Source of the DNA: an uncultured Prevotellaceae bacterium
GTDB lineage: Bacteria > Bacteroidota > Bacteroidia > Bacteroidales > Muribaculaceae
Length of the DNA stretch: 44,153 bases
Assembly: GCA_900318065.1 (NCBI GenBank)
Contig: ONIY01000025.1
Coordinates: forward strand, 1 to 44,153
Reading direction: 5' to 3'
In this document: positions 14,268 through 40,833 of the stretch, one piece after another
How the letters are laid out: the number at the start of each line of letters is the position of its first letter
How positions within the stretch are numbered: position 1 is the first letter of the stretch
Translations under genes and position numbers: made by a program
The notes under the pieces: generated by a model
The model's input: only the letters and a program-made list of their open reading frames with translations
Told to the model about the DNA's origin: nothing
The model's database searches: none

Positions 14268-14437
14268 GAGGACGAAGGACGAAGGACAAAGGACAAAGGA
14301 CAAAGGCCTCGACTGCTCGACCGCTCGACTACTCGAATGCTCGACCGCTCGATCCCCGGAACATCCAGAACATCCGGAACATCCGGAACACCTAGAACAC
14401 CCGTCAACTGATTACTGACTACTGATTACTAAAAACA
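14268..14437 (+). repeat. Four-module repeat spacer between sufD and sufS
   Basis: Four tandem-repeat blocks follow one another: GGACAAAGGAC-type units (14269-14306), CTCGACCG-type units (14307-14355), CCGGAACATC-type units (14356-14405) and ACTGATTACTG-type units (14406-14436). The last ends at the sufS ATG. The spacer before the CNNM gene (40685-40833) has the first, third and fourth blocks in the same order. Confidence 0.8.
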
Positions 14438-15646
14438 ATGAACATCTACGAAATACGTGACCAATATCCTATCCTGAACAGAAAAATCGACGGCAAGCCG
14501 CTCGTCTATCTCGACAATGCTGCCACGTCGCAGACACCGCGATGTGTGGTTGAGACCATCAACGACATGTACTTCAACCACAAGTCGAATGTTCACCGCG
14601 GGGTTCACACCATCTCGCAAGAGGCCACCAACATCATGGAGGCCACTCGAGATAAGGTGCGACAGTTCATCAACGCCAAGTCTACCAGCGAGATAGTGTT
14701 CACGCGTGGCACCACCGAGGCCATCAACCTCGTGGCATCATCCTATGGCGACAGCCTCTTCACTGGCGACGAGATAGTGCTCACCGTCATGGAGCACCAC
14801 AGCAACATCGTGCCTTGGCAACTGCTGCAGCGCAACAAGCGACTGAAGATCCACGTCGTGCCCATCGACAACAACGGCAACCTCGACATGAACGCCTATG
14901 AAGACCTCTTCACCGAGAACATTCGCTTTGTCGCTGTCACTCACGTGTCGAATGTGCTGGGAACCATCAATCCCGTCAAGGAGATGGTGCAGATTGCACA
15001 CCGCTATGGAGTGCCGGTGCTCATCGACGGCGCTCAGGCGGCTCCTCACATGAAGATCGACGTCCAGGACCTCGATGCCGACTTCTACTGCTTCTCGAGC
15101 CACAAGATGTATGGTCCCGCAGGAATTGGTGTGCTTTATGGCAAGGAGAAGATGCTCAATCGCATGGTGCCCTACCAGGGTGGCGGCGAGATGATTGGGA
15201 ATGTGACGTTTGAGAAGACAACTTTTGCCGAACTGCCGTTCAAATTTGAGGCTGGCACGCCCGACTTTGTGGGCATTGCCGCCTTTGGCGCAGCCATCGA
15301 CTATATCAACTCGCTGGGCATCGACAACATCGCCAGCCACGAGCAACTGCTGCTTGATGCTGCTACAAGCCAACTCATGGAGATTGAGGGCATGCGCATC
15401 TTTGGCACCAGCGACAACAAGGAGGGAGTGATCTCATTCCTCGTGGGCGACATCAACAGCTACGACATGGGATTGCTGCTCGACAAGCTGGGCATCGCCG
15501 TGCGCACCGGTCACCACTGCGCGCAACCGCTAATGAAACGCCTGGGCGTGACAGGTACCGTGCGAGCCTCGTTTGCCCTCTACAATACCCTTGAAGAGGT
15601 CACAGCCTTCACCCAAGCTGTAGCCCGCGTCGCCAAGATGTTTTGA
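14438..15646 (+). CDS. sufS: SufS-type cysteine desulfurase
   Basis: The 402-residue PLP enzyme takes sulfur from L-cysteine, releasing alanine, and supplies it as persulfide to the Suf scaffold. Lys223 in SSHKMYGPAGIGVLYG is the PLP-binding residue. His120 and His121 (MEHHSNIVPWQ) are in the usual positions. Cys361 in RTGHHCAQPLMKRLG is the persulfide cysteine on the short SufS-type loop. The N-terminus (YPIL, LVYLDNAATSQTP) fits group II desulfurases. It is the last gene of the operon and is followed by a strong terminator. Its usual activator SufE or SufU must be encoded elsewhere. Confidence 0.97.
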   Translation: MNIYEIRDQYPILNRKIDGKPLVYLDNAATSQTPRCVVETINDMYFNHKSNVHRGVHTISQEATNIMEATRDKVRQFINAKSTSEIVFTRGTTEAINLVASSYGDSLFTGDEIVLTVMEHHSNIVPWQLLQRNKRLKIHVVPIDNNGNLDMNAYEDLFTENIRFVAVTHVSNVLGTINPVKEMVQIAHRYGVPVLIDGAQAAPHMKIDVQDLDADFYCFSSHKMYGPAGIGVLYGKEKMLNRMVPYQGGGEMIGNVTFEKTTFAELPFKFEAGTPDFVGIAAFGAAIDYINSLGIDNIASHEQLLLDAATSQLMEIEGMRIFGTSDNKEGVISFLVGDINSYDMGLLLDKLGIAVRTGHHCAQPLMKRLGVTGTVRASFALYNTLEEVTAFTQAVARVAKMF

Positions 15647-15679
15647 GTTTTTTTAGAGATCGCTGAGATACAATAAAAG

Positions 15680-15716
15680 TAAGAGTGCTGGCAATCGCTA
15701 ACTGCCAGCACTCTTA
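15680..15716. terminator. Bidirectional terminator between sufS and the small secreted protein gene
   Basis: Arms TAAGAGTGCTGGCA and TGCCAGCACTCTTA form a perfect 14-bp stem with a 9-nt loop between two convergent genes. A-rich and T-rich flanks serve both directions. Confidence 0.85.
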
Positions 15717-15748
15717 TTCTTATGTGCTTCCATTTTGTGTATTATTTT

Positions 15749-16099
15749 TTACATATATCCAACTACGATGTAAACAAACCCGTTTGGTGTGCGAACCTCG
15801 CGATAGAGGACTCCACCGGCGAGCAACAGGCGCTCACGATTGTGGGTGATGAAGCGTCCATAGGCGGGACGGTGAATGAAGCGTGATCCCATGACTGGAC
15901 GATAAGCGTAACGAATTCTCTTGTCAAAGTGGCGTGGGCCTGGGTGACGGTCGAAGTGGCGGTTATCTATACGGCGCTCAATGTGGTGCCTGCTGCCACC
16001 CATGTCACGATGACGAACTCCCTGTGCGGTGGCAACGCTTGTGCCACTCATTAGCATTGCAGCTGCTGCAAATGCCGTGATAAGTAATCTTGTTTTCAT
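15749..16099 (-). CDS. Small secreted His/Arg-rich protein, unknown function
   Basis: I do not recognise the family. The chosen start MKTRLLITAFAAAAMLM gives a classic signal peptide with a cleavage site after ATAQ; an ATG seven codons upstream would only add a short polar extension. The mature part of about 90 residues is very rich in Arg, His and aromatics (HFDRHPGPRHFDKRIR). It ends in a small beta-like segment, VLYREVRTPNGFVYIVVGYM. It could be a periplasmic, metal- or anion-binding protein, but this is not shown. It is transcribed alone, opposite to suf, and shares suf's terminator. Confidence 0.6.
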   Translation of the reverse strand: MKTRLLITAFAAAAMLMSGTSVATAQGVRHRDMGGSRHHIERRIDNRHFDRHPGPRHFDKRIRYAYRPVMGSRFIHRPAYGRFITHNRERLLLAGGVLYREVRTPNGFVYIVVGYM

Positions 16100-16305
16100 A
16101 ATCTTATAATTTTGTGTCATGCGACCTATGAGCTGTCTGCCATGACTAGTGAAACATGTTGTTTAGTTCTCTTTGTCTTTTAGACTACCCTAAAAGGCGA
16201 AGGTTGAACGGCCGTTTCCCGTCAATATATTTTCACACCTTTTCCGCCGATTAACACCCTATTGTTATATATGAATAGGATTTTTGAATGTAAAGCGCGG
16301 GCCGG

Positions 16306-16665
16306 CTGGCCGTAGGCCAGGACGTCCCCGAAGAAGAGAGCTGCGAGGCTGGCTGGCCGTAGGCCAGGACGTCCCCAGCGGGGACGAAGTGAGCAACCTC
16401 ACGGCGCGTACCCCGGAGGGGTGAGTGGCGTGAGGGTTAAGCACATCCATCCCCCTGATGGGCCCCGAAGGGGGCCAACACTTGCTGGCATTGCTCCTCC
16501 CAAGAGTAATGGACTCACATGATGGATATTGTTGACCCTCTACGAGGCTCGGAATAAGGGAAAACGATACCGAAAACGATACCCTACGCCACGCACCCCT
16601 TCGGGGTACGCGCCGCAGGGTTGCATCATCTCGCCCCCTTCGGGGACGCTCTGGCCTACGGCCAG
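16306..16665. repeat. GC-rich block of nested palindromes with long inverted arms
   Basis: CTGGCCGTAGGCCAG occurs at 16306-16320 and 16353-16367, and its inverted form at 16651-16665. Between them are many short hairpins with 3-nt loops: GTCCCCAGCGGGGAC (16371-16385), ACCCCGGAGGGGT (16410-16422), GGCCCCGAAGGGGGCC (16461-16476) and ACCCCTTCGGGGT (16595-16607). At larger scale, 16353-16440 and the reverse complement of 16578-16665 are imperfect copies of each other, enclosing about 140 bp. The block is non-coding and sits between the small secreted gene and the gyrB terminator. The remaining stretch to 16857 shows nothing else. Confidence 0.65.
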
Positions 16666-16857
16666 CACCACATGCCACCTGCCAGTGACGAAACGACCAC
16701 ACAACAACCGCAACCACAAAACTGCCAACTTGCAATAGCCATGGTTGTGCGTTTTCATTATTTTTCGGACACTAATGATTTTCAATAGTTTTTAATCGTA
16801 CTTAATCGTTTGACAACTCAAGCCGGCACAAACATCACTTCATAAACTTGACTTAAT

Positions 16858-16893
16858 AATAAAGCCAGCGCCTTGAATGGGTGCTGGCTTTGT
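16858..16893 (-). terminator. gyrB terminator
   Basis: The stem AAAGCCAGC / GCTGGCTTT, with a partly paired interior, starts about 20 nt after the gyrB stop codon on the minus strand and ends in a T-rich stretch. Confidence 0.75.
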
Positions 16894-16914
16894 TTTGTTG
16901 CTGTGAACCGACTG

Positions 16915-18903
<1,989 letters not shown>

Positions 18904-19026
18904 TTATTTGCTTAACTCTTTTCACAAGGCACTTTCAAGCAGATGCAACATTTTGTCGCACAAGCCATTATTCACCTCACAAGTTGCTCAAAAAACAACT
19001 CCGAGACCCGTGCCCGTAAAAACATA

Positions 19027-19034
19027 CAAAGATA
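19027..19034 (-). promoter_or_regulatory. -7 promoter element of gyrB
   Basis: TATCTTTG on the minus strand, inside an A/T-rich region, about 140 nt before the gyrB start. No good -33 element is visible. Confidence 0.45.
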
Positions 19035-19126
19035 CAAAAAAATGGCAGAACAGCGATAGATTTAAATCATAAAAAAAGTAAATTTTTTCACATAAAATCA
19101 AAACCATTTTCTCGCAAAAAAATCCC

Positions 19127-19388
19127 AGAAAATCGGGAGCATCCACCCCACGTAAATCCCGGAACACCCGCCCCCCCCCGGAATACCCGGAATATCCGGA
19201 ATATCTGGAACTTCCGCAAGAAAAGGCACCCGCACATCACTGCACGGGCACCAAATTGTGCATTATGAATTATGCATTATGCATTAATTCAAGGCGCAGC
19301 CCAAATTGTGCATTATGAATTGTGCATTGTGCATTAATAAAATCACCCAACTTCCATAAACCATAAACCATAAACCATAAACCAAAGG
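19127..19388 (-). repeat. Multi-module repeat spacer between the nucleoside kinase gene and gyrB
   Basis: Read along the minus strand, the direction of both flanking genes, the spacer holds four GGTTTAT-type units (19354-19384), then two blocks of AATGCATAATTCATAATGCA type (19256-19338), then GTTCCAGATATTCCGG-type units (19180-19215). A 34-nt part (19304-19337) is identical, on the sense strand, to 38317-38350 near the outer-membrane protein gene. Confidence 0.75.
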
Positions 19389-19393
19389 GAGGA

Positions 19394-21088
19394 TTACTCC
19401 TGCCTGTTGGGATACTTGAAGCTTGATCCACCCAGGAACTCTCGCATAATGCTTGTGGGTGGTATCTCCTTGTCGTCGACGGGGATGAAGTAGTGGATGA
19501 ACTTGAGCAGGCGGTGAGCCTCGCTGTACTCAGGGCAGTTTTTGGGCACCGACGAGAGGATGAGCTCGGCATGCGGCCTGAGGACGGCAAACTCGATGTT
19601 GAGCGCCGAGTTAAACATCATGTCGGCATTCTCTTGGTAGGGTGCTATCCACTGTTCCTCCGAGAGGCACACGTTCCTCCACTGGCTGATGGTCTCGCGG
19701 GCGCTGAAGGCTCCCTTGTTGTAGTCGCGGATGATGCGACGCAGCAGGCGGTTGTCGCTGGTGGGCACCCAGTTGTGGTCGTCGAGCGAGATGCTGGTGA
19801 GGGTGGAGATATACACCTTGAACTTCTTGCTGTCGGGGATGCGCTCGGTGAGCATGGGGTTAAGGGCATGGATACCCTCGATGATGAGCACGGTGTCGTT
19901 CTTGAGCTTAAGCTTCTTGCCGTTGAACTCGCGCTTGCCGGTCACGAAGTTGAACTCTGGGATTTCCACCCTCTCACCATTCATCAGGCGGGTGAGGTGG
20001 TCCTCAAGCAGGTCGCAGTCCACCGCCTTGATATTGTCGAAGTCATAGTCGCCGTTGGGCAGCAACGGGGTGTCCTCGCGGTTGACGAAGTAATCGTCGG
20101 TAGAGAACGACAGGGGCCTGAGGCCGCAGGCGAGCAGCTGGATTGACAAGCGCTTGCAGAAGGTGGTCTTTCCCGAACTCGACGGACCGGTGATGAGCAC
20201 CAGGCGGATGGGGTTCTCCTTGTCACGGAAGCGACGGTTGATTTCCTCGGCAATCTGCACAATCTTCTTCTCCTGCAACGCCTCGCTCACCTGGATGAGC
20301 TCCGAGGCATGACCGTTGAGCACCGCCTTGTTCACGTCGCCGGCATTAGACTGGCGCATGATCACATCCCAGTGCACTTTCTCGGCAAACATCTCAAACG
20401 TGCGAGGCATGTCGTGCATGGGCGAGAGCTTGGTGGGGTCATGATGGTCGTGGGTGCGAAGCATCAAGCCGTCCTTGTAGCGCACCACATCCCACACCTT
20501 GATGTAGCCAGCCGAGGGCAGCAGCGGGCCATAGAAATAGTCGGCTACATCGTCGAGGGTGTAGTAGTCGCTGTAGATTTGTCCGCTCGACTCGAGCAGC
20601 TTCACCTTGTCGGCAAAACCACGCTCGGCAAACACCTTGATGGCGTCTTCGGTGGTAGCCTCATGGCGGTGGAACACCATGTCGGTGTCGATAATCTCCT
20701 TCATGCGCTGGCGAATGTTAACGATGTCCTCGTCGGTAACTGGCTCGCCACTCTTCTTGCGCAGGTTGCAGTAGTAGCCACCCGAGATGGGGTGCTCGAT
20801 AAAGAGTTTGCTGCCAGGGATCACATCGCTTGCCGCCTTGTAGAGCACAAAGCATAGCGAGCGCACATACACCCTGTAGCCCGACCCCCTGCGGGCGTCG
20901 AGAAATTCCACGTCACGGTTCTGGAACAGCCTGAACTTGAGGCCTTGTGAGGCGTTGTTAACCTTTGCCGACACCACAGGATACTTGAACTGCAGCTCAT
21001 CGGCAAATGCATTGTAGACTTCGAGCAGAGACGTCCCCTCGGGAAATTCTCGCGTCACATTGTTGTTTTTACATCGGATTTGAAGCAT
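19394..21088 (-). CDS. Nucleoside kinase with N-terminal TGS-like domain
   Basis: The 564-residue protein has an N-terminal TGS/ThrRS-editing-like region (1-about 230, including EFPEGTSLLEVYNAF and FRLFQNRDVEFLDA). It is fused to a uridine-kinase/phosphoribulokinase-type P-loop domain (about 290-500). Walker A is GPSSSGKTTF at 301-310 and the substrate-side motif is TDDYFVNRED at 330-339. FNFVTGKREF and IIEGIHALNP follow, as in uridine kinases. Family members are annotated as nucleoside kinases, presumably phosphorylating uridine or cytidine. The role of the TGS part is unknown. It is the last gene of the apparent parC operon, 25 nt after trmO. Confidence 0.85.
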   Translation of the reverse strand: MLQIRCKNNNVTREFPEGTSLLEVYNAFADELQFKYPVVSAKVNNASQGLKFRLFQNRDVEFLDARRGSGYRVYVRSLCFVLYKAASDVIPGSKLFIEHPISGGYYCNLRKKSGEPVTDEDIVNIRQRMKEIIDTDMVFHRHEATTEDAIKVFAERGFADKVKLLESSGQIYSDYYTLDDVADYFYGPLLPSAGYIKVWDVVRYKDGLMLRTHDHHDPTKLSPMHDMPRTFEMFAEKVHWDVIMRQSNAGDVNKAVLNGHASELIQVSEALQEKKIVQIAEEINRRFRDKENPIRLVLITGPSSSGKTTFCKRLSIQLLACGLRPLSFSTDDYFVNREDTPLLPNGDYDFDNIKAVDCDLLEDHLTRLMNGERVEIPEFNFVTGKREFNGKKLKLKNDTVLIIEGIHALNPMLTERIPDSKKFKVYISTLTSISLDDHNWVPTSDNRLLRRIIRDYNKGAFSARETISQWRNVCLSEEQWIAPYQENADMMFNSALNIEFAVLRPHAELILSSVPKNCPEYSEAHRLLKFIHYFIPVDDKEIPPTSIMREFLGGSSFKYPNRQE

Positions 21089-21113
21089 GGCTTGGAATGT
21101 TTTATTGTGTTAT

Positions 21114-23994: not shown

Positions 23995-23997
23995 GTT

Positions 23998-27054: not shown

Positions 27055-27210
27055 GAGGGTGTTGCAAAAGACTGAAATTGCGTCAATGTAGGGACAACGC
27101 GTGCGTTGTCCGAAAACAGCGAAAGTGCTGATCACCAGATGTCTGCCCTAGCGGACAAGGCACGCCTTGTCCCTACAGAATGAGAATTCTGTGAGTTTTG
27201 CAACACCCTC
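27055..27210. repeat. 156-bp palindromic intergenic element, copy 2
   Basis: Perfect 15-bp terminal inverted repeats (GAGGGTGTTGCAAAA at 27055-27069; complement at 27196-27210) enclose two palindromes: GGACAACGCGTGCGTTGTCC and GGACAAGGCACGCCTTGTCC. The element is the inverted homologue of 3823-3978. A short GGGGATCGG-type tandem repeat (27003-27040) precedes it. It lies between the parC promoter region and the 3' end of the CDF transporter gene. Confidence 0.75.
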
Positions 27211-29531: not shown

Positions 29532-29559
29532 TTGCTTTTAGGTTTTATTACTAATTTTG
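29532..29559 (+). promoter_or_regulatory. Promoter of ruvB
   Basis: TAATTTTG (29552-29559) matches the -7 box, with TTG at 29532-29534 spaced 17 nt upstream. The ATG is 24 nt further on. Confidence 0.6.
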
Positions 29560-29583
29560 CAGTCTCTGACTAACGAGTATATT

Positions 29584-30612
29584 ATGAACGACGACTTCGA
29601 CATAAGAGAAGAACGAACAGCAGTCGACCGCGATTTTGAGAAGGCTTTGAGGCCGGCGAGGTTTAGCGACTTTGCCGGGCAGGAAGGCATCATCAACAAT
29701 CTCAAGGTCTTTGTCGCTGCTGCACGACAGCGAGGCGAGGCACTCGACCACACGCTGTTCTATGGACCTCCAGGACTGGGAAAGACCACTCTGTCGAGCA
29801 TTATCGCCAACGAGATGGGAGTGGGATTTAAAGTGACCAGCGGGCCCGTGCTCGACAAGCCTGGCGACCTGGCGGGACTGCTCACCTCGCTCGAGGAGAA
29901 CGATGTGCTCTTCATCGACGAGATTCACCGCCTGAGCCCCATCGTGGAGGAATACCTCTACTCGGCAATGGAGGACTACCGCATCGACATCATGATTGAC
30001 AAGGGCCCCGGTGCACGCTCGGTGCAGCTCACCTTGTCGCCATTCACCCTCATTGGTGCCACCACTCGCAGCGGACTGCTCACAGCACCCTTGCGTGCAC
30101 GATTTGGCATCAACTGCCACCTGGAGTACTACAACCACGAGGTGCTCGAGGGCATCATCAAGCGCTCGGCACGGTTGCTCAATGTGCCCATTAGCGACGA
30201 CGCCGCCCACGAGATTGCCCTGCGCAGCCGCGGCACGCCACGTGTGGCAAACTCGCTGTTGCGCCGCGTGCGCGACTTCGCCCAGGTGATGGGAAGCGGC
30301 AAAATCGACACCGAGATAGCGAAATATGCTCTTGAGTCGCTCAACATCGACACGTGCGGCCTCGACGAGGTGGACCACAAACTGCTCACGACCATCATCG
30401 ACAAGTTTGGCGGCGGACCTGTGGGCCTCACCACCCTCGCCGCTGCGCTCAACGAGGATGCCGGCACTATCGAGGAGGTGTATGAGCCATTCCTCATCAA
30501 GGAAGGGTTTATCAAGCGCACTCCACGAGGCCGCGTAGCCACCGACCACGCCTTCACCCACCTCAACCGCCACCGCAAGACCTCCCCAGGCGAGCAAGCA
30601 AGCCTATTTTAA
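29584..30612 (+). CDS. ruvB: Holliday junction branch migration helicase RuvB
   Basis: The 342-residue AAA+ motor drives branch migration of Holliday junctions with RuvA. Walker A GPPGLGKT is at 61-68, Walker [11 protein letters not shown] at 108-117, sensor 1 IGATTRSG at 157-164, and the arginine-finger region LRARFG at 170-175. The C-terminal winged helix has [13 protein letters not shown]. The ATG at 29584 gives the usual RuvB N-terminus; an upstream TTG inside the promoter is unlikely. RuvA and RuvC are not nearby. A repeat spacer, then the flippase gene, follows. Confidence 0.97.
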
Positions 30613-30780
30613 GGGTTAAGTTGCGCCTGCGGCGCGGGGATCGTGGACAAAGGACGAAGGACGAAGGACAAAGGACAAAGGATCCTTATCCATTCCTATC
30701 CACTCCTCTCCACTCCTCTCCACTCCTCTCCACTCCTCTCCACTCCTCTCCACTCCTCTCCACTCCTCTCCTCTCCACTC
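30610..30780 (+). repeat. Repeat spacer between ruvB and the flippase gene
   Basis: From the ruvB stop codon the order is: one TAAGGGTTAAG unit, the palindrome GCGCCTGCGGCGC (30623-30635), GGACAAAGGAC-type units (30645-30682), and at least seven perfect 10-bp CACTCCTCTC units (30701-30770) with decayed flanks. The first two modules recur after the outer-membrane protein gene at 39835-39881. Confidence 0.85.
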
Positions 30781-30807
30781 CAATTCATTAATTGAAAAGA
30801 AATAAAC

Positions 30808-32319: not shown

Positions 32320-32324
32320 TCCTT
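32297..32324 (+). terminator. Terminator overlapping the flippase stop codon
   Basis: AAGGACTAAGC and GCTTAGTCCTT form an 11-bp perfect stem with a 6-nt loop. The stop codon TAG lies in the right arm. A T-rich stretch follows. Confidence 0.8.
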
Positions 32325-32494
32325 AATATTTTAGTCCACTTAAAAAAGTCGTATTTTGTGCCTACTCAAGTTGTCAAACGATTAAGTACGATTAAAAACT
32401 ATTGAATATCAGCAAAATATATTTGGCGAAAAATGTTGAAAAATAGTGGTTTTTACTTTTTAAAGTGAACTTATATTTTTATACTTCGGCAAGC

Positions 32495-32646
32495 GGTCAC
32501 AGCAGGCTGTGTCCCTACAGTGCCATATCAATCCTCAATCCCCAATCTCAATCCTCGATCTTCGATCCTCAATTCTCGCGCCGAAGGTGTCACTTAACAC
32601 TTAACACTTAACCCTTAACACTTAACACTTAACACTTAACACTTAT
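32495..32646 (-). repeat. Repeat spacer after DUF4834
   Basis: In the minus-strand sense, directly after the DUF4834 stop codon: about eight TTAAGTG units (32586-32645), a GCGCC-containing segment, GATTGAGGATCG-type units (32528-32577), then GGGACACAGCCTGCTGTG (within 32495-32524). The same order of modules follows the outer-membrane protein gene at 39838-39942. The remaining gap (32325-32494) is A/T-rich with nothing recognised. Confidence 0.75.
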
Positions 32647-32991: not shown

Positions 32992-33071
32992 ATCGTGTTA
33001 TTATCGATTTAGTTATTTATTGATCTCGGTATCACAATCATGCAATAACCGTGCCAAATGTTGAGAATAAA

Positions 33072-33785: not shown

Positions 33786-34468
33786 TGGGCTGGTTTGCGG
33801 GGTTTTAGACGGGCAATGGGAGTGATGCCACCAGTGGTGATATCGCCCAGTTTCACAAGTATCTCACTGTCGAGCGGCAGATAGATGTCGACCCTCGAGC
33901 CAAATTTTATGAACCCTATGAAGTCGTCGATGTCGACCTGGTCGCCGCCTTCCACATAGGTGACGATGCGGCGAGCTATCGCGCCGGCAATCTGCCGCAC
34001 GAGCACGTCCTCACCGTTCTTGTCGCTCTCTATCACTATCGCCGAGCGCTCATTGTCGGTGCTAGACTTGGGAAGATAGGCGGCAAGGAAGCGACCGGCG
34101 TGGTGCTTCACATATTTCACCTTGCCCTTGAGGGGAACCCAGTTGGCGTGAACATTAAACACCGACATGAACACCGAGAGTTGAATAACATTCTTGTGAA
34201 GATATTCACCCTCATACACTTCCTCCAGAGCAACCACCTTGCCGTCAACACTCGACACCACCACGCCATCGCTGTCGCCCTTGAAGTGGCGCTGGGGAAG
34301 CCTGAAGAAATTGATCACCAGAGCAAAGGTGATTACACTGAGGGCTATCAGCACATAGGATATCCACTTCAACTCGATAAACAAGTAAGCGGAGATATTG
34401 ATTGCCAGCAGAATAAACAACAACACAAAGATGATATTCTGGCCTTCTCTATGTATTTTAACCTTCAT
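33782..34468 (-). CDS. psd: Phosphatidylserine decarboxylase (short, PSD-like type)
   Basis: The 228-residue protein converts phosphatidylserine to phosphatidylethanolamine. Two N-terminal transmembrane segments (about 12-52) are followed by the catalytic part with FFRLPQR, SSVDGKVV, FNVHANWVP (His107) and the autocleavage site FIKFGSRVD, where Gly190-Ser191 would yield the pyruvoyl group. The length fits the short archaeal/Bacteroidota form. It is first in the psd-pssA-DUF4834 unit, with a -7 box at 34498. Confidence 0.94.
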   Translation of the reverse strand: MKVKIHREGQNIIFVLLFILLAINISAYLFIELKWISYVLIALSVITFALVINFFRLPQRHFKGDSDGVVVSSVDGKVVALEEVYEGEYLHKNVIQLSVFMSVFNVHANWVPLKGKVKYVKHHAGRFLAAYLPKSSTDNERSAIVIESDKNGEDVLVRQIAGAIARRIVTYVEGGDQVDIDDFIGFIKFGSRVDIYLPLDSEILVKLGDITTGGITPIARLKPRKPAQ

Positions 34469-34497
34469 TATTTTTCAGTAATTTCGCTATCAATCGG

Positions 34498-34505
34498 CAA
34501 AGATA
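34498..34505 (-). promoter_or_regulatory. -7 promoter element of the psd-pssA operon
   Basis: TATCTTTG on the minus strand, 30 nt before the psd start. No convincing -33 element at the usual distance. Confidence 0.5.
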
Positions 34506-34563
34506 ACAATTTTACTCCAAAAACACCACATTTACTTACAAAAAACTTCTTTTTCACAAAAAT

Positions 34564-34680
34564 CGGACAAAAGGGACGGCATTCTTTTTGTCCGGTTTTC
34601 CATCATTTCCAGGAAAAACGGAAAAAGGGGTCGGTTCCTTTTTTCCGTTTTCGGAAAAAGGGGTCGGTTCTTTTTTTCCG
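34564..34680. repeat. Three tandem hairpins after the phosphoethanolamine-transferase-like gene
   Basis: CGGACAAAA...TTTTGTCCG (34564-34594) is followed by two near-identical hairpins at 34619-34647 and 34652-34680. Each has a CGGAAAAA arm, a GGGGTCGG centre and a TTTTTCCG arm; the two start 33 nt apart. They lie just downstream of the minus-strand gene ending at 34730 and could act as a tandem terminator. Confidence 0.6.
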
Positions 34681-34729
34681 ATTTTTGGGGGGGAAGGGGA
34701 AGTTTTGGTGCCTTTTCTTTGCGGCTCAA

Positions 34730-36538
34730 TTAACGGGCTTGGCGCACTATTTCGTCGTAGTCGTACTTGTCGAAGACGATGCGCTGCTGGGGCTGGTAGC
34801 TGGGGCTGGTGATGTCGCGCTCGGGGCGATAGTAGGGGGTGCTCACTCCCGCCAGGCGCAGAATCATCGTGCCCACGTCCTGCACCATGCCAGGCCGAGT
34901 GGCAGCTGCCTTGAGCTGGCTCACGAGTTGCTGGTGATGGGCGATGTAGTAGTCGCTGCACCACACCACCATGGGCACGTCGTTCTGGCATCGCAGCAGC
35001 TGGGCGTTGGGCTCAGCCACCTCTCCGCGGCCGCAGTGGTCGCGATAGTCGTAGGCCTCGTCGCCGTGGTCGGAGAAGTAGACCACCACTGCATTCTTGT
35101 CGCGCCACTTGTCGAAGATGCGCTTCATCACCGCGTCGTTGTAGAGCGTGGCGTTGTCATACTGCGCGATATAGGTGCGTTTCTCCTTGTTCAGATATGG
35201 TGCCTGGCTCTTCACGGAGTCGGCAGTAAAGCGGTCAAATCCTTTTTTCTTGGGATACCTGCCCACGGGGTGCACATGCTGCCCCATGAGGTGGAAGATA
35301 TAGAAATTATACTTTGCCGGCGGGAGCTGCGACTTTTTCTCGAAGTCGGCAATGAGATTGCCGTCGAAGGTGAGGCCAATGCTTGACGTCTCATCATAGC
35401 TCATGGGAGCGATGGTGCTGTTATAGATAAAGGCGTTGACGGTGATGGTAAACATCTCGGTCTTAGCATAGTTGCGCTGATTGTCCCAGAAGTAGACGTT
35501 GAATCCCGCATGCTTGAGCACCGTGGGCAGCATGGGCTTGTCATACCACATCTCGCCCGAGCCCTTGTCGTTGAGCGAGAACACGTTCTTCTGAACCTGC
35601 GAGGTGGCGTTGTAGGGCGTCACAACGTCGGTAAACACCACCAGGTTGCCCTTGTCGCGCTCGGCCTGCATAGCCGGAGTGGTGTTCAGGTAGTAGCCAT
35701 AGAGTGCCGCGTGGCTCTTGATATAGCTCTCGCCCATGACCATCACCACGTGGAGCGAGTCGGGCTCGGCAACCGCCACTTCGCTGGCGAGCACCGCCCG
35801 TGCCACCTGCTCGGCCTGGGCAATGTCGGCCTTGCTCACCCCCACGTAGCACATCGAGTAGAACGACGTGCTCAAGTGGTCGAGCGCATCGATGCCAAAG
35901 CCTTGCACCCACCGTGTGAGTTCCTTGGAATGCACGCAGCGCGCAAGGCTCACGTAGTTGTGGGCAAAGTACACTCCGCACACTATGAGCGGCAGCAGTA
36001 GCACTGCCAGCACGGCCTTCACCGCGCGTTTCGACGTCAACCGCTGCAGCCAGCGCTTCTTCCACTCAACCACGATTACTGCCGCTATTATCGCCACGTC
36101 AATGGCATAGGCCCACAGACTCTTGGCGCCAAGGAAATAGGTGCTCACAAACTCGCTCGCCTCCTTGGGATTAGTCTCGGCGAGCAGCACTAGGATGCGA
36201 GGGCCCAGGGGCATCTCAAAGTTCAACATCAGGAACACATACACCACTTGCAGCACCAGCAACACGCTGTAGCACACCGTCTTAAACACCACCCTTGCCC
36301 AGCGGGCACGCAGGCAGTGAAGCACTGCGGTGAGGGCATAGGCCACAGCGGTGCTCAGCGCCAGGCAGCGCAGCGCCTGACTCCAACTGTTGTCGGGATA
36401 CATGAAGCAGCCCACCAGGTAGCCCAGCGTGACGCTGCTGTTGATGAGCCACACCACCACAAAGAAGTTAAACTCCTGTGCCACAGGGCGCATGAGCCAA
36501 CTCACCAATCTCCGCAATTTGCCCCATATTTTCTTCAT
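34730..36538 (-). CDS. Phosphoethanolamine transferase-like membrane enzyme (EptA/sulfatase fold)
   Basis: Five or so N-terminal transmembrane helices (about 25-200) precede a periplasmic alkaline-phosphatase-fold domain (about 265-580). Metal-site signatures are VVMVMGESYIKSHAALYGY and VVYFSDHGDE. A Thr in TPYNATSQVQ is the likely nucleophile by position. The FHLMGQHVHPVGRYP block with conserved His residues is typical. The family moves phosphoethanolamine from phosphatidylethanolamine to lipid A or other envelope glycans, and can confer polymyxin resistance. The acceptor here is unknown. Start MKKIWGKLRR is preferred over an ATG six codons earlier. It lies beside psd-pssA, which make its likely donor. 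Confidence 0.88.
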   Translation of the reverse strand: MKKIWGKLRRLVSWLMRPVAQEFNFFVVVWLINSSVTLGYLVGCFMYPDNSWSQALRCLALSTAVAYALTAVLHCLRARWARVVFKTVCYSVLLVLQVVYVFLMLNFEMPLGPRILVLLAETNPKEASEFVSTYFLGAKSLWAYAIDVAIIAAVIVVEWKKRWLQRLTSKRAVKAVLAVLLLPLIVCGVYFAHNYVSLARCVHSKELTRWVQGFGIDALDHLSTSFYSMCYVGVSKADIAQAEQVARAVLASEVAVAEPDSLHVVMVMGESYIKSHAALYGYYLNTTPAMQAERDKGNLVVFTDVVTPYNATSQVQKNVFSLNDKGSGEMWYDKPMLPTVLKHAGFNVYFWDNQRNYAKTEMFTITVNAFIYNSTIAPMSYDETSSIGLTFDGNLIADFEKKSQLPPAKYNFYIFHLMGQHVHPVGRYPKKKGFDRFTADSVKSQAPYLNKEKRTYIAQYDNATLYNDAVMKRIFDKWRDKNAVVVYFSDHGDEAYDYRDHCGRGEVAEPNAQLLRCQNDVPMVVWCSDYYIAHHQQLVSQLKAAATRPGMVQDVGTMILRLAGVSTPYYRPERDITSPSYQPQQRIVFDKYDYDEIVRQAR

Positions 36539-36591
36539 AGTTTCGCCTCTCATCATCGATGTTGCTCTCTTCTTGAATGCAAAAAAACATG

Positions 36592-36599
36592 CAAAATTA
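36592..36599 (-). promoter_or_regulatory. -7 promoter element of the phosphoethanolamine-transferase-like gene
   Basis: TAATTTTG on the minus strand, about 55 nt before the start. No good -33 element. Confidence 0.5.
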
Positions 36600-36663
36600 G
36601 CAAATTATTGCATATCGGCGACTCTAACCCCACACAAAAAGTGAAAAATCCATTTTTTCTCAT

Positions 36664-36671
36664 TACCTTTG
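36664..36671 (+). promoter_or_regulatory. -7 promoter element of trmD
   Basis: TACCTTTG, about 80 nt before the trmD ATG, divergent from the promoter at 36592. Between it and the ATG is a short ACTAATAACTA-type repeat (36723-36749). Confidence 0.5.
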
Positions 36672-36752
36672 CGGTTGCATTCAGTACTGACCACAAAGTA
36701 GAGAGGCGCTGAGTGGAGAGGTACTAATAACTAAAAACTAATAACTAACCAC

Positions 36753-37424
36753 ATGCGTATAGACATACTCACAGTAATGCCCGAGGCGCTTGAGTCGCCA
36801 CTGCACTGCAGCATTGTGCAGCGAGCACAAGACAAGGGACTGGTGGAGATACACATCCACAACCTGCGCGACTGGTCGCTACGCAAGCACCGCAAGGTCG
36901 ACGACTACCCCTTTGGCGGAGAGGCAGGCATGGTGATGCAAATCGAGCCGGTGTTCCGATGCATCGAGCACCTCAAGAGCGAGCGCCATTACGATGAGAT
37001 CATCTTCACCTCGCCCGATGGCGAACTCCTGGACCAGCCCATCGCCAACCAACTCTCGCTGGCCCAGAACCTCATCATCCTGTGTGGCCACTACAAGGGC
37101 ATTGACTACCGCATCAGGGAGCACCTCGTCACACGCGAGATATCCATCGGCAACTATGTGCTCACGGGGGGCGAACTGCCGGCAGCAGTCATCGCCGATG
37201 CCGTGATAAGGCTCATACCAGGTGCCATTGGCGACGAGCAGAGCGCTCTCAACGACTCCTTCCAGGACAATCTGCTCGAGGCACCCGTCTACACCCGACC
37301 CGCCGAGTTCAACGGATGGAAGGTGCCCGACATCCTGCTCAGCGGCAATTTCGCCAAAATCGATGAGTGGAAGATGCAGCAAGCGCTCGAGCGCACCAAG
37401 CGTCTGCGACCCGACCTCCTATAG
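36753..37424 (+). CDS. trmD: tRNA (guanine-37-N1)-methyltransferase
   Basis: The 223-residue SPOUT-class enzyme methylates G37 of tRNAs with a G36pG37, preventing +1 frameshifts. The N-terminus [17 protein letters not shown], the loop [16 protein letters not shown], and the trefoil-knot SAM site ([27 protein letters not shown]) are all present. [19 protein letters not shown] is the substrate-side block. It is not in the usual ribosomal rpsP-rplS context. The divisome gene downstream has its own promoter. Confidence 0.96.
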
Positions 37425-37494
37425 TCTCTCGCCACGACGAAAAAATTCCACAAAAAAACCAACAACTAACAACTAATAACTAAAAACTTTTCAC

Positions 37495-37502
37495 TATCTT
37501 TG
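37495..37502 (+). promoter_or_regulatory. -7 promoter element of the FtsB/DivIC-like gene
   Basis: TATCTTTG, 37 nt before the ATG at 37540. It follows directly on an AACTAATAACTA-type repeat (37461-37488). Confidence 0.5.
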
Positions 37503-37539
37503 CATCCCCCTATAAAACGAGTATTATATTTTTACGACT

Positions 37540-37848
37540 ATGAAATTGAAAAAAATCACGCGGCCCAAGTGGATTCCGTTATGGCTCAGCATTCCATTTG
37601 TCCTCTTTATCGCCTTTATCGTCTTTCTGCTGTTCTTTGGCGAGAACAACTTCAGGGAAATCTCCAAGCAGCAAAAGGAGATTGACCACTACAAGGCAAT
37701 GATTCAAGAGCAGGAGGACTCGGCAAAGTACTACGAACGCAAAACGCAGGAACTCAACACCGACAAGGAGACTCTCGAGAAAATAGCACGGGAGCAGTAC
37801 AACATGAAACGCACCAACGAGGATGTCTATAAAACCGATATCCCCTAA
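37540..37848 (+). CDS. Septum formation initiator family protein (FtsB/DivIC-like)
   Basis: The 102-residue bitopic protein has a basic N-terminus, one transmembrane helix (about 12-35) and a periplasmic coiled coil (ISKQQKEIDHYKAMIQEQED). The conserved tail ETLEKIAREQYNMKR is the FtsB/DivIC motif. Such proteins form the FtsQLB complex that activates septal wall synthesis. Sequence alone does not separate FtsB from DivIC. It is followed after 23 nt by a small membrane protein gene, probably in the same mRNA. Confidence 0.88.
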   Translation: MKLKKITRPKWIPLWLSIPFVLFIAFIVFLLFFGENNFREISKQQKEIDHYKAMIQEQEDSAKYYERKTQELNTDKETLEKIAREQYNMKRTNEDVYKTDIP

Positions 37849-37871
37849 CCCACTCTAATCTACATTAAGTT

Positions 37872-38234
37872 ATGAAAAAGATGAACGAAAAAAACTCTGG
37901 TCTGTTGCTGTGCATCGCCATGCTGGTGATGCTGGGAGCAGCACTGGTGCCAATATTTGGAGTCAAACTGCCGTGGCTAAGGTACGTCTTCGCTGGCGGC
38001 GCTGTGCTAACACTCATCGCGCAAGTGCTCACACCAGCGCCAGCCAACACGCTAAGAGTGCGCCGACTCGCACGCATCAACGTGTGGGCAGCAGTGCTCT
38101 ACTGCGTAGCGGCAGCATGCCTCTTTATCAACGATGCCGCCATGCAGCGCAGCTGGATAGCCTTTCTCCTCGCCGGAGCAGTAATCCAAATCTACGCCAC
38201 ACTCATGCTTGCAAAACTCACTAAGAAGGCATAA
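37872..38234 (+). CDS. Small four-helix membrane protein, unknown function
   Basis: I do not recognise a family. The 120 residues contain four hydrophobic segments (about 10-30, 37-52, 68-86, 95-115) with short basic connectors (RVRRLARIN), so it is an integral inner-membrane protein. It is 23 nt downstream of the FtsB/DivIC-like gene, suggesting an envelope or division link, which is inference. The last 14 codons and the stop are duplicated in tandem just past the gene end. Confidence 0.65.
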   Translation: MKKMNEKNSGLLLCIAMLVMLGAALVPIFGVKLPWLRYVFAGGAVLTLIAQVLTPAPANTLRVRRLARINVWAAVLYCVAAACLFINDAAMQRSWIAFLLAGAVIQIYATLMLAKLTKKA

Positions 38235-38280
38235 TTCTACGCCACACTCATGCTTGCAAAACTCACTAAGAAGGCATAAT
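38191..38280 (+). repeat. Perfect 45-bp tandem duplication across a stop codon
   Basis: 38191-38235 and 38236-38280 are identical. The first copy contains the C-terminal codons and TAA of the small membrane protein; the second repeats them in frame after the stop. Perfect identity implies a very recent event. Confidence 0.95.
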
Positions 38281-38300
38281 TCATAAGGATATAAAATTGA

Positions 38301-38510
38301 GTGACTGCGCCTTTTTTTAATGCACAATGCACAATTCATAATGCACAATTAAGCCATCGATTGCTCGACTGCCCGAAAAATCGATGGCGCGACTGCTCGA
38401 GTTCCCATCCCTCGCCCCACACGCTGCAGGCGCACATTCCACGTTCCACATTCCACATTCCACATTCCACCTTCCACGCGCCGCAGGCGCACCTATACAC
38501 CTCTACATTA
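38301..38510 (+). repeat. Multi-module repeat spacer upstream of the outer-membrane protein gene
   Basis: Modules in order: an AATGCACAATTCATAATGCA-type block (38317-38350, identical over 34 nt to the sense strand of 19304-19337); CGACTGCTCGA-type units (38355-38402); GCAGGCGCAC segments (38425 and 38487); and ATTCCACATTCC-type units between them (38433-38478). An exact TTAGTGAAAAT direct repeat (38508-38528) leads into the promoter. Confidence 0.75.
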
Positions 38511-38539
38511 GTGAAAATTAGTGAAAATTCCTTGTTTGT

Positions 38540-38571
38540 TTTGCGCAAGTGGTGTGTATTTAGTAATTTTG
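38540..38571 (+). promoter_or_regulatory. Promoter of the outer-membrane protein gene
   Basis: TTTG (38540-38543) and TAATTTTG (38564-38571) are spaced by 20 nt, matching both parts of the Bacteroidota consensus. The ATG follows 24 nt later. Confidence 0.7.
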
Positions 38572-38595
38572 CAATTTGGAAAAAAATTCAATTAG

Positions 38596-39837
38596 ATGAA
38601 ACGCATAAAACACATAATATTAGCAGGTTTATTCGTTGCCGCCGGCACCGCAGTGGCACTGGCGCAATCGTCTACAAGCCCCTATTCACGACTGGGCTTC
38701 GGCATCCTTAACGACAACACCACTGGCACTCAGCGCTCAATGGGCGGTGTGGGATATGCCATGCAAAGCGGACGACAAATCAACGTCATGAACCCTGCCA
38801 GCTACTCGCAGGTGGACTCTCTCACATTCCTGTGGGACATAGGCATTGACCTGACTAACAACTGGTTGAAGGAAGGCGACAAGAGCGGATACAGCCTGGG
38901 CGGAGGACTCGACTACATCACCGCCGAGTTCAGACTTGCCAAGCACTTGGGTGCTGCTCTGGGACTGGTGCCCTTCTCGAGCGTGGGATACAGCTTTGGT
39001 GGAAACATCACCAGTGGCAAAGACTCCAAGGCCGGCTCAGGCGGACTGAACGAGCTCTTTGTGGGTTTGGGATATGAGCCCTTCAAGGGTCTGTCGATTG
39101 GCGCCAACTTCTCTTACCTCTTTGGCACTACGACCCACACCACCTCGTTGGCCTACCTCACCACCTCACAGTTCACCCGCAGCCTCGAAGTGAGAGACTG
39201 GAACGTGCGAGCTGGTCTGCAGTATGGTTTCAACATCTCACGCAAGAGCCGCGTGGTGCTGGGCGTTACCTATCAGCCCAAGAAAACCATGCACGGCACA
39301 GCAATGGGCACGATGTCGGACGTGTCGCAAGACACCAAAGTCGACACCGTGGCAAACATCTCGCTCAAGGGCAACTACGAGCTGCCCACCACCATTGGCG
39401 CCGGCATCAGTTACACCTACGACAACCGCCTCAACTTTGAGGTTGACTATACCTACCAGCAATGGTCGAAGGCTAAATACACTCCCATCAACTACTTTGA
39501 GGATCCAGATACCAAGTGGAACGACCGCTGGAAAGTGGCTGCTGGTGTGTCATATATGCCCAATCCTCGTGGCAGCTACCTCAAGCGCATGACCTACCGC
39601 CTGGGTGCCTTCTACAACAACGACTACACCAACGTGAGCGGCAACGATGTGCGCGACTACGGCGTCACTCTGGGTTTCTCTTTCCCTGCCCTCAACAGCA
39701 AGACACTGGTCAACCTGGGAGTGGAATGGAAACACCGCTACACTGCGCCCACCAATCTGCTCAAGGAAGACTACCTGAACATTACACTGAGCGTCAACTT
39801 CAACGAGATGTGGTTCTGGAAGAACAAGATTAGGTAA
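38596..39837 (+). CDS. Outer-membrane beta-barrel protein
   Basis: The 413-residue protein has a signal peptide (ILAGLFVAAGTAVALA) and then a conserved start, SSTSPYSRLGFGILND, seen in Bacteroidales barrel proteins. The rest alternates polar and aromatic residues in strands such as LNFEVDYTYQQWS, MTYRLGAFYNNDYTN and LNITLSVNFNEMWF, ending in a basic terminal KNKIR. The fold resembles the FadL/OmpP1-like class, but no substrate can be assigned. It lies upstream of lptC, so both may serve the outer membrane; cotranscription is plausible because no promoter was found before lptC. Confidence 0.75.
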   Translation: MKRIKHIILAGLFVAAGTAVALAQSSTSPYSRLGFGILNDNTTGTQRSMGGVGYAMQSGRQINVMNPASYSQVDSLTFLWDIGIDLTNNWLKEGDKSGYSLGGGLDYITAEFRLAKHLGAALGLVPFSSVGYSFGGNITSGKDSKAGSGGLNELFVGLGYEPFKGLSIGANFSYLFGTTTHTTSLAYLTTSQFTRSLEVRDWNVRAGLQYGFNISRKSRVVLGVTYQPKKTMHGTAMGTMSDVSQDTKVDTVANISLKGNYELPTTIGAGISYTYDNRLNFEVDYTYQQWSKAKYTPINYFEDPDTKWNDRWKVAAGVSYMPNPRGSYLKRMTYRLGAFYNNDYTNVSGNDVRDYGVTLGFSFPALNSKTLVNLGVEWKHRYTAPTNLLKEDYLNITLSVNFNEMWFWKNKIR

Positions 39838-39942
39838 GTGTTAAGGGTTAAGTGTTAAGGGTTAAGTTGCGCCTGCGGCGCTGTGGAACGTGAAACGTGG
39901 AACGTGAAACGCGTCAATGTAGGGACACAGCCTGCTGTGTCC
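39835..39942 (+). repeat. Repeat spacer after the outer-membrane protein gene
   Basis: From the stop codon on: four TTAAGGG/TTAAGTG units (39835-39866), palindrome GCGCCTGCGGCGC (39869-39881), GGAACGTGAAAC-type units (39884-39910), then a short copy of the dispersed palindrome, GGACACAGCCTGCTGTGTCC (39923-39942). Confidence 0.8.
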
Positions 39943-40009
39943 ACCTGGCGGCGCGGGAAACATGTCAACCTGGTGTTACCGCATTTTGTTTTGAGCACTG
40001 AATTTAATA

Positions 40010-40684
40010 ATGAAAGAAAGCCGATATTATTTCATAATAGCTATTCTCATAGTCATCTTGATAGCCAGTGGCTGTAAAGACGACGTCGCCACCACCTCCA
40101 AGACACATTTCGACCCCGAGAAGATGCCAACCATGGTGTCGCGTAACGTGCAGACGCTGCTCAGCGACTCGGGCGACACTAGATACCGCATCACCACCAA
40201 GACGTGGCTGGCGTTTGAGAACATGAACCACCCTCACTGGATTTTCCCCGACGGGCTCATCGCCGAAGAACTCGACTACACAACTCCCGACTTTAAAGTG
40301 AAGATGTCGATGAAATGCGACTCGGCACACTACGACCGAAACCAGCGTATGCTAACCCTCACCGGCAACGTCACTATTCACGACAACACCGGTGGCGAGA
40401 TAACATGCGACTCGGCCTACTATGACGAGGAGAAAGCGCTGTGGAGCCTCAACAGCATGGTAACTATCACTAACACCAACGGCGGGAAAATCGAGACCAA
40501 CCAAATGTACTGGGACCGAAAGGCCAACAAATACTACAGCGACTCGTTCATCAGGCTGCAGTCACAAGACAAGATTCTTGAGGGACACGGCTATGAGTCG
40601 AACGACCGCATCACCAACTACAAGGTGCGCAAGGTGCAGGCAATAGTCCCCGTGGGCAGCACCAGCCTGCCATCAATGCAATAA
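40010..40684 (+). CDS. lptC: LPS export protein LptC
   Basis: The 224-residue protein is the periplasmic bridge component that passes lipopolysaccharide from LptBFG to LptA. It has a lipoprotein-like signal (IVILIASGC, Cys22) instead of the plain anchor of E. coli LptC, as in other Bacteroidota. The beta-jellyroll shows CDSAHYDRNQRMLTLTGNV and CDSAYYDEEKALWSL repeats, and a terminal GHGYESNDRITNYKV. The upstream outer-membrane protein gene and the following CNNM gene are in the same direction. Confidence 0.85.
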   Translation: MKESRYYFIIAILIVILIASGCKDDVATTSKTHFDPEKMPTMVSRNVQTLLSDSGDTRYRITTKTWLAFENMNHPHWIFPDGLIAEELDYTTPDFKVKMSMKCDSAHYDRNQRMLTLTGNVTIHDNTGGEITCDSAYYDEEKALWSLNSMVTITNTNGGKIETNQMYWDRKANKYYSDSFIRLQSQDKILEGHGYESNDRITNYKVRKVQAIVPVGSTSLPSMQ

Positions 40685-40833
40685 AAGTACAAAGGACAAG
40701 GGGCTAAGTACAAAGGACGAAGTACAAAAGCCCGCCCCCGGAAAACCCGGAAAACCCGGAATATCCGGAACATCCAGCAACTGATAACTGAATAACTGAT
40801 AACTGACAACTGAATACTGACAACTGACAACCA
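40684..40833 (+). repeat. Three-module repeat spacer between lptC and the CNNM gene
   Basis: ACAAAGGAC-type units (40687-40729), then CCGGAATATC/CCGGAACATC units (40735-40777), then ACTGATAACTGACA-type units (40778-40832) running up to the ATG. These are the first, third and fourth modules of the sufD-sufS spacer, in the same order. Confidence 0.85.

Follow-up and report, generated by a model that had tools for sequence, protein, structure and literature searches.

How do unrelated intergenic spacers of one bacterial genome come to be filled with the same short tandem repeats in the same order? The question is raised by a stretch of 44,153 nucleotides (hereafter the window; contig ONIY01000025.1 of assembly GCA_900318065.1) from an uncultured Prevotellaceae bacterium assigned by GTDB to the Muribaculaceae. 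In two spacers of this window, sufD-sufS and lptC-CNNM, GGACAAA-type units are followed by CCGGAACAT-type and then by ACTGATA-type units. A reading of the window from its sequence alone (the sequence-only reading) had pointed out this common order and offered two explanations for it, namely A-rich leaders in a genus that does not use Shine-Dalgarno sites, or an unknown repeat-spreading process. The order was confirmed in the sequence, the first block of the lptC-CNNM spacer being degenerate and the sufD-sufS spacer holding an additional block of CTCGACTG 8-mers that had not been named before. We consider it likely that these spacers are copies and remnants of a modular dispersed intergenic repeat family, composed of ordered tandem-array modules that are joined directly or by short linkers.

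Abundance of the arrays

Ten spacers of the window (2,287 bp) contain 23 arrays according to Tandem Repeats Finder (score ≥40, period 7-21), compared to a mean of 0.10 and a maximum of 2 in 100 dinucleotide shuffles, and a mean of 0.40 and a maximum of 2 in length-matched coding stretches. Chance or low complexity, which had been dismissed from the outset as an explanation for the recurring blocks, is ruled out by these shuffles together with the permutations of array order reported below.

The genome totals 2.985 Mb in 97 contigs, and the array statistics are based on a sample of 764,703 bases in 27 pieces, the window among them. A simple home-made hexamer model called 616 genes in this sample (82% coding, with approximate start sites), and the spacer statistics concern 479 spacers of 20-1500 bp, shorter and longer ones being excluded. 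Fifteen unit families, with unit lengths of 7, 8, 9 or 10 bp, were defined from the genome itself. The module set, described as recurring at unrelated loci of the window, reaches beyond it, as 112 of the 479 spacers hold 286 arrays of 7-10 bp units. Over the whole sample 301 arrays were found in 136 kb of non-coding DNA and 37 in 629 kb of coding DNA, which makes them about 37-fold denser between genes. This coding/intergenic contrast was adopted because the reversed-sequence control of the family scan proved poor (116 matches vs 338): CACTTAA when reversed reads AATTCAC, which belongs to another family. Arrays of period 7 dominate (129 intergenic vs 17 coding in the first gene set), ten of the fifteen families have at least 10 intergenic arrays each, and the ACTGATA family has 40 intergenic and 2 coding ones. 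The pattern ACTGATAACTGA gave 151 matches in the whole genome and 0 in the backward control, while the pattern CGCAAGGCACGCCTTGCGA (one match here, two in genome G173) overlooked most copies, which have one additional base.

Arrays were present in 82 of the 327 co-directional, 16 of the 73 convergent and 14 of the 79 divergent spacers. Neither the convergent (Fisher P 0.65) nor the divergent spacers (P 0.19) differed significantly from the co-directional ones, and the densities amounted to 3.0-3.2 (co-directional), 2.2 (convergent) and 1.0 (divergent) arrays per kb. Among the 213 arrays of co-directional spacers, 149 were sense and 64 antisense.

Order and polarity

Of 301 pairs of different families that share a spacer, 255 show the arrangement most often seen for the two families concerned, compared to 146±5 after permutation of order and strand (maximum 163 of 2000 permutations) and 188±5 (maximum 206) after permutation of order alone. 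Among neighbours within 60 bp this holds for 118 of 134 pairs, against 73±3 (maximum 85) after permutation. The fixed block order put forward for the window is therefore non-random across the sample.

The position of the arrays relative to gene ends is also regular, and the boundary counts bear out that blocks begin at stops or end near starts. Arrays lying no more than 25 nt from a stop codon are sense for TTAAGTG (16/16), GGTTTAT (10/10), GGATCGG (8/8), GTGGAAC (8/8), GGACAAA (7/7), GGTGAGA (5/5) and AATGCAC (10/12), and antisense in six of seven cases for ACTGATA. All 21 ACTGATA arrays whose end is 25 nt or less from a start codon are sense, the distance to the ATG often being a few bases, and arrays near starts are antisense for TTAAGTG (9/9), GGTTTAT (5/5) and AATGCAC (6/8). 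Among 81 arrays that start near a stop, the stop codon is included completely in 19 and partially in 15. One rule thus covers starts and stops: opener units point away from the gene and ACTGATA points toward it. A directed composite that fills the spacer would produce this symmetry, which taken alone is no sign of transcription. Four outcomes would have spoken against the idea of ordered modules: random order, equal use of the strands and equal presence inside genes were not seen, but in convergent gaps the arrays are about as common as in co-directional ones.

A simpler rule, with purine-rich arrays to the left and pyrimidine-rich arrays to the right, was also considered and is weak in this genome (rho -0.31 at P 4e-6, with non-independence among arrays that share a spacer). 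It was found in a genome of the same class, G293 (rho -0.40, P 0.03), and fails in G080, G015 and G320, all of which have few arrays. The family-specific polarity is stronger than this rule.

Linkers, composites and orthologous spacers

Examples of composites are (i) TTAAGTG followed by a hairpin and then GTGGAAC or GGATCGG; (ii) GGTTTAT followed by a unique linker, GGTGAGA, CTACTCAA and ACTGATA; and (iii) AATGCAC followed by CTCGACTG and reverse-strand GGATCGG. The hairpin GCGCCTGCGGCGC (linker B) joins TTAAGTG to GTGGAAC or GGATCGG, and the other composites do without a hairpin. Junctions between families contain unique linkers, such as GGAAGACAGTGGCGAGATTA and TTGCGCCTGCGGCGCG, and a BLASTN comparison of spacers against each other showed 81-90% identity between composites of unrelated loci, over stretches that took in as much as 79 bp of non-tandem sequence. 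Linker B together with TTAAGT is present in 52 copies in this genome and in none of 40 congeners. Linker A, which follows GGTTTAT, is present in 48 copies here, four in G001, one in G010 and none in the remaining 38 congeners. Two of the G001 copies are surrounded by units belonging to this set and are followed by different modules; at the other two the scan found no units. Since unique linkers reach about 50 copies, copying is needed to account for them. In 11 of 15 cases no bases intervene between CTACTCAA and the ACTGATA that follows it, which would fit switching at the shared ACT core.

In the relatives, which inhabit animal guts, the orthologous spacers are often short and without arrays, or contain other modules. 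A SufD scan of public genomes gave 19 loci, 15 of them at 82-90% identity, five of which were labelled as forestomach samples. The lptC-CNNM spacer measures 149 bp here, against 34 bp in G010, 13 bp in G001, 28 bp in G011 and 56 bp in the more distant G008; the sufD-sufS spacer measures 170 bp, against 23-87 bp in 14 relatives. Inspection by eye of the latter revealed other modules of the set at three loci (L006, L007 and L012), a short TCAGA run at L014 and no clear array in the rest. In the sufC-sufD spacer GGTGAGA-like units are present at L007 and absent here, and the TCTAGAA array between sufB and sufC is replaced by AGTCACTCTT units at L006 and by ACTGATA at L018. The number of AATGCA-type units in this spacer ranges from 0 to 13 across the 14 relatives, a variation between species and not strains, in which the spacer of L011, where the SufB frame stops prematurely, was trimmed to its last part; L008 lacks SufB at that place. 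Slots thus persist while their contents change and unit numbers vary. An assembly artefact is unlikely, because the modules lie on many contigs and in the records of relatives.

The modules accordingly have a set order and polarity and linkers in common, reach high copy number in a species-limited way, are absent from orthologous sites and differ in unit number at one conserved site. Unique segments recurring in many copies at unrelated loci, together with a unit number that varies at a fixed locus, are features of modular dispersed repeats with variable-copy segments, such as BOX and STAR. Of the two explanations offered at the outset, a repeat-spreading process is the better supported, given that the 52- and 48-copy linkers are nearly absent from the congeners searched and that composites are missing from the orthologous spacers of relatives. 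Composites would be copied as DNA into new spacers, probably when an array pairs with a similar one elsewhere during recombination or template switching, and replication slippage may afterwards lengthen and shorten the arrays. Coding sequence would set the limits of this process, which may be why arrays span the distance from stop codon to start codon.

Several observations weigh against dispersal by copying. The order was tested on the same sample from which the unit families had been defined, for which reason loci outside the sample were inspected. There, in agreement with the order, seven of nine inspected copies of linker A (of the 48) were followed by sense ACTGATA, with GGTGAGA, GTGGAGA, CTACTCAA or CTCGACTG in between where anything was present, and all eight inspected copies of linker B (of the 52) were followed by sense GTGGAAC or GGATCGG; contrary to a simple order, two linker-A copies (L160, L161) also have a sense ACTGATA array upstream of GGTTTAT. 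The linker queries include part of the preceding unit, so the presence of GGTTTAT before linker A and of TTAAGTG before linker B is partly given by construction. The polarity has exceptions. Sense orientation near starts was seen for one GTGGAAC array, two AATGCAC arrays and two of the three GGATCGG arrays; near stops, two AATGCAC arrays are antisense and one ACTGATA array is sense. Neither terminal inverted repeats nor a clean empty site were found for the composites; no target-site duplication was seen, the ends of the orthologous spacers being too diverged in the nearest relatives to be aligned by eye; and the whole spacer seems to have been replaced rather than interrupted. At five of six RAYT (Y1_Tnp) loci no modules were found within about 1.5 kb on each side where the contig allowed, two loci having single 14-bp ACTAATA matches. 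Finally, the ACTGAYW unit is found in 37 other genomes and in viral contigs, which copying inside this genome cannot explain.

Alternative explanations

The arrays might instead be unstructured A-rich leaders, selected in place of Shine-Dalgarno sites and with modules fixed by a preference of the ribosome or S1, as a translational role has been proposed for the TAACTGA unit in the part of the MacGregor 2015 report available to us (PMC4679880). The uniformly sense ACTGATA arrays close to ATG codons agree with this, as does the folding of leaders from -45 to +15, which averages -2.3 kcal/mol with ACTGATA (n=20), -3.9 with other arrays (n=39) and -6.8 with no arrays (n=399), values that are uncorrected for base composition. 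On the other hand, the modules are equally frequent in convergent and co-directional gaps, many arrays adjoin stops, 64 of the 213 arrays in co-directional spacers are antisense, array-rich spacers are no less folded than their shuffles (mean z -1.25, n=44), and linkers at about 50 copies require copying. Convergent gaps rule out a leader role as the sole cause, and the A-rich leaders that had been suggested, while weakly folded in the case of ACTGATA, explain only part of the data; this reading is rather unlikely. Under dispersal by copying, the weak folding of ACTGATA leaders suggests that a leader function, if any, may be secondary. The spacers could also act at the RNA level as hairpins or terminators formed by facing complementary arrays. 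Such arrangements do exist, for instance GGTGAGA in sense and antisense on both sides of CTCGACTG (C25:38259-38601), three of seven folded window spacers have z ≤-2.4 (12081-12174, -4.9; 38235-38595, -2.6; 40685-40833, -2.5), and all eight spacers of a phage contig (L215, see below) fold far below shuffles, with a mean z of -8.0. As a group, however, the array-rich spacers of this genome are not more folded than arrayless ones (-2.05, n=45; P 0.07), and facing arrays mostly come from different families, so that a hairpin role here is unsupported for the group despite the three window spacers, and highly improbable.

Two further explanations concern the origin of the arrays. Replication slippage by a polymerase favouring 7-bp units, a few sequences being favoured everywhere, could build arrays independently in each spacer, in line with the prevalence of period 7, with the presence of the ACTGAYW unit in 26 of 140 genera and with the polymerase idea of Mrazek 2007, as cited in the portion of MacGregor 2015 consulted (PMC4679880). 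Slippage gives neither a fixed order of different units nor fixed polarity nor shared unique linkers, and as an independent origin in each spacer it is very unlikely. Movement of the composites as non-autonomous transposons, either of BIME/REPIN type or as miniature inverted-repeat transposable elements (MITEs), by a RAYT or another transposase of the genome would be consistent with six Y1-transposase matches, with REP-like repeats (REP, repetitive extragenic palindrome) near four of five examined RAYT loci, with the hairpin linkers inside some composites and with an inverted-end repeat in the window. The examined RAYT loci are flanked by other repeat families and not by heptad modules, leaving a RAYT as mover unsupported at five of the six loci; moreover, the composite ends GGTTTAT and ACTGATA are not mutual inverted repeats, and a target duplication was not seen. 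Transposition of this kind therefore seems unlikely to us.

Related genomes and phages

The pattern ACTGATAACTGA was matched 60 times in G080, 16 times in G015 and 0-7 times in the other 13 same-genus genomes of the set, G080 and G015 sharing units and having few arrays. Other genera of the family gave at most 4 matches, with similar counts in the backward control. Of 296 genomes in the phylum, 38 matched a longer ACTGAYW pattern, the present one included, and 10 matched its backward control, one of these 17 times. Twenty ACTGAYW places from other genera were inspected: tandem units of different types adjoin some of them, and boundary polarity is not strict there, as at least two (ACTGATT in L108 and L109) run sense from a stop codon. 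G293 (GC content 0.32; L137-L147) uses an alphabet of its own for its heptad and octad arrays, and at several spacers the arrays that follow stops are complementary to those that precede starts.

Viral contigs were matched by a 26-base ACTGAYW pattern in at least 120 stretches, with 80 loci among the matches listed. Several IMG/VR contigs (L215, L195, L208, L174/L196 and L181; GC content 0.57-0.62) are rich in ACTGATT arrays, which in L215 and L195 mostly face each other as inverted arrays around an A/G- or T/C-rich linker. Contig L215 (9,130 bp, GC content 0.59) encodes a head-tail adaptor, a Neck1-like protein and virion structural proteins, and all eight of its spacers of at least 30 bp consist of a stop, antisense ACTGA arrays, an A/G- or T/C-rich linker, sense ACTGA arrays and a start. 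The polarity of these phage arrays is the same as in the bacterium, which was unexpected. The eight spacers fold strongly, with z from -4.0 to -14.9 compared to shuffles. In L195 arrays occur in 10 of 14 spacers of at least 30 bp, and an exact match to linker B was not found in the viral contigs. Heptad spacers might represent one general system of several phyla and their phages, in which a dedicated or recombination-driven process writes spacers from stop to start with a small unit alphabet and fixed polarity and phages can carry the system between lineages, an idea that we regard as quite doubtful.

Features of the window

The arrays named by the sequence-only reading were found at their places or a few bases off (Table 1), with some corrections. 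Those reported before gyrB exist (19178-19384) and lie about 290-500 nt from its start, beginning beside the stop of the upstream minus-strand gene; those before the FtsB-like gene (37457-37488) do not end at its start, which lies 51 nt further on. Between them and that start sits TATCTTTGC (37495-37503), which resembles the Bacteroidetes promoter box. Several blocks, among them 32528-32645 and 38433-38477, are reverse complements of units found elsewhere. Pfam matches fit the gene identities SufC (ABC), SufD, SufS (class-V aminotransferase), GyrB, TrmD, FtsB/DivIC, LptC and CNNM, and the supposed flippase gene, whose spacer does carry arrays, had no Pfam match at E 1e-5 or better. The Pfam search covered ten proteins, the outer-membrane protein and SufB not being among them, and Rfam at gathering thresholds yielded one tRNA and nothing else in the window.

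Table 1. Arrays and linkers between the genes of the window (remarks on relatives refer to the orthologous spacer)
Feature	Position	Strand	Remark
AATGCAC/AATTCAC array, directly 3' of sufB stop	12084..12115	+	≥2 units in 10/14 relatives, range 0-13
TCTAGAA-type 9-mer array before sufC	12116..12155	+	≥2 units in 12/14 relatives
GGACAAA/GGACGAA array after sufD stop	14269..14306	+	
CTCGACTG 8-mer array, sufD-sufS	14308..14352	+	
CCGGAACAT 9-mer array, sufD-sufS	14355..14403	+	
ACTGATT/ACTGACT array, end 7 nt 5' of sufS ATG	14407..14430	+	
CCGGAATAT 9-mer array, antisense to minus-strand genes	19178..19216	+	
Two AATGCAC arrays, minus-strand reading	19255..19335	-	
GGTTTAT array adjoining stop of 19394-21088 gene	19354..19384	-	
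TTAAGGG/TTAAGTT units, stop codon of upstream gene included	30609..30622	+	
GCGCCTGCGGCGC hairpin linker (B)	30623..30635	+	52 genomic copies together with TTAAGT
GGACAAA array	30645..30682	+	
TCCACTCCTC 10-mer array before 30808 gene	30689..30782	+	
GGATTGA/GGATCGA array, convergent gap	32528..32577	-	
TTAAGTG array at stop of 32647 gene	32591..32645	-	
ACTAATA array before trmD	36723..36748	+	
ACTAACA array upstream of FtsB-like gene	37457..37488	+	
AATGCAC array	38319..38349	+	
GTGGAAT array	38433..38477	-	
GCGCCTGCGGCGC hairpin	38478..38490	-	
TTAAGTG/TTAAGGG array, in register with stop codon	39835..39867	+	
GCGCCTGCGGCGC hairpin linker	39869..39881	+	
GTGGAAC/GTGAAAC array	39883..39911	+	
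Degenerate GTACAAA/GGACAAG array at lptC stop	40684..40728	+	
CCGGAAAAC/CCGGAATAT 9-mer array	40737..40770	+	
ACTGATA array, end 2 nt 5' of CNNM ATG	40778..40831	+	

Repeats of other kinds are also present in the window. A MITE-like element at 27057-27208 has terminal inverted repeats (GGGTGTTGCAAAA ... TTTTGCAACACCC), internal palindromes and similar copies on other contigs. The tandem CGGAAAAAGGGGTCGGTTCC repeat at 34619-34685 also lies beside a Y1 transposase gene on C36 (L065) and is for this reason probably the REP of that transposase. A repeat block at ~16300-16665 is common to C12, C7 and C15 and matches the flanks of the C15 (L064) Y1 transposase gene at 79-94% in BLASTN, and a dispersed repeat of ~135 bp (GTCCACTTAAAAAAGTCGTATTTTGTGCC...) at ~32334-32470 is common to C14, C24 and C7. 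A REP-like palindrome, GTAGGGACACAGCCTGCTGTGTCC, is located at 39919-39942, with a reverse-strand relative at 32498-32518; a "GTAG-tagged" REP class has reportedly been described. A perfect 45-bp tandem duplication (38191-38282) covers the last codons and the stop of the 37872-38234 gene.

Comparison with known systems

The spacers described here are mosaic dispersed repeats built of heptad arrays. BIMEs and REPINs with their RAYTs are said to be mosaic dispersed intergenic repeats with short palindromes; they resemble the present system in being mosaic, dispersed and intergenic, whereas its bulk consists of tandem arrays instead of REP pairs and the examined RAYT loci show other repeats. Pneumococcal BOX elements are modular, with three modules and a middle part of variable copy number, and the cyanobacterial STRR are heptanucleotide arrays in spacers, described as single families, so that modularity and heptad arrays are shared while three modules or single families differ from the many-unit set found here. 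Porphyromonas gingivalis, a member of the same order as the source bacterium, has an intergenic dispersed element of its own. This BrickBuilt MITE carries, according to the accessible part of its description, a tandem array of one 23-bp unit and inverted-repeat ends (PMC4596501), in contrast to the several units of 7-10 bp here, for which inverted ends were not found. STAR elements of staphylococci are, in the consulted sections of the report, interspersed intergenic direct repeats whose loci differ by species and whose arrays expand and contract at fixed loci (PMC3532100); these otherwise similar arrays have one repeat type, and ordered multi-unit composites are not described in those sections.

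Heptad repeats have also been published for other phyla. In the part of MacGregor 2015 available to us (PMC4679880), TAACTGA direct repeats are described as intergenic and mostly sense just before starts; they are reported, in some cases together with other heptamers, from Beggiatoaceae, Cyanobacteria and five Bacteroidetes. The present ACTGATA unit, the same heptad in rotated form, is likewise intergenic and sense before starts. The repeats of that report are mainly of one unit, other units being rare as repeats in the BOGUAY genome compared to fifteen unit families here, and its available part does not describe an ordered many-unit set, conserved linkers or amplification of composites. GGGNATC heptads of Xanthomonas and Nostoc, as presented in the consulted part of Rehm 2015 (PMC4692102), form G-quadruplexes, are sense within 50 bp after stops and antisense before starts, overlap stops, are few between divergent genes and occupy loci that are mostly conserved between two species. 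The opener families here resemble them in boundary polarity, in overlapping stop codons and in being scarce between divergent genes. GGATCGG runs contain GGGGATC, while GGATCGA variants do not fit the GGGNATC unit; GGATCGG is sense at all eight stops, and of only three arrays near starts one is antisense and two are sense. The GGGNATC system, as far as that account goes, has a single unit, unlike the fifteen families of the present genome, most of which are not G-rich, and its species-limited composites.

The spacers show that two heptad repeat kinds, reported separately in other phyla, can belong together in a single ordered mosaic and that the same modules can serve to rebuild unrelated spacers of a genome. 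An old curiosity, the filling of bacterial spacers by 7-bp repeats running mostly in one direction, becomes a testable question, for which a case-rich genome, relatives with short or empty versions of the same spacers and phage contigs with the same unit provide a resource. A literature search, conducted mostly at the level of titles and abstracts, found no published description of an ordered multi-unit set with linkers. TAACTGA before starts and the boundary polarity of GGGNATC were already known from other phyla.

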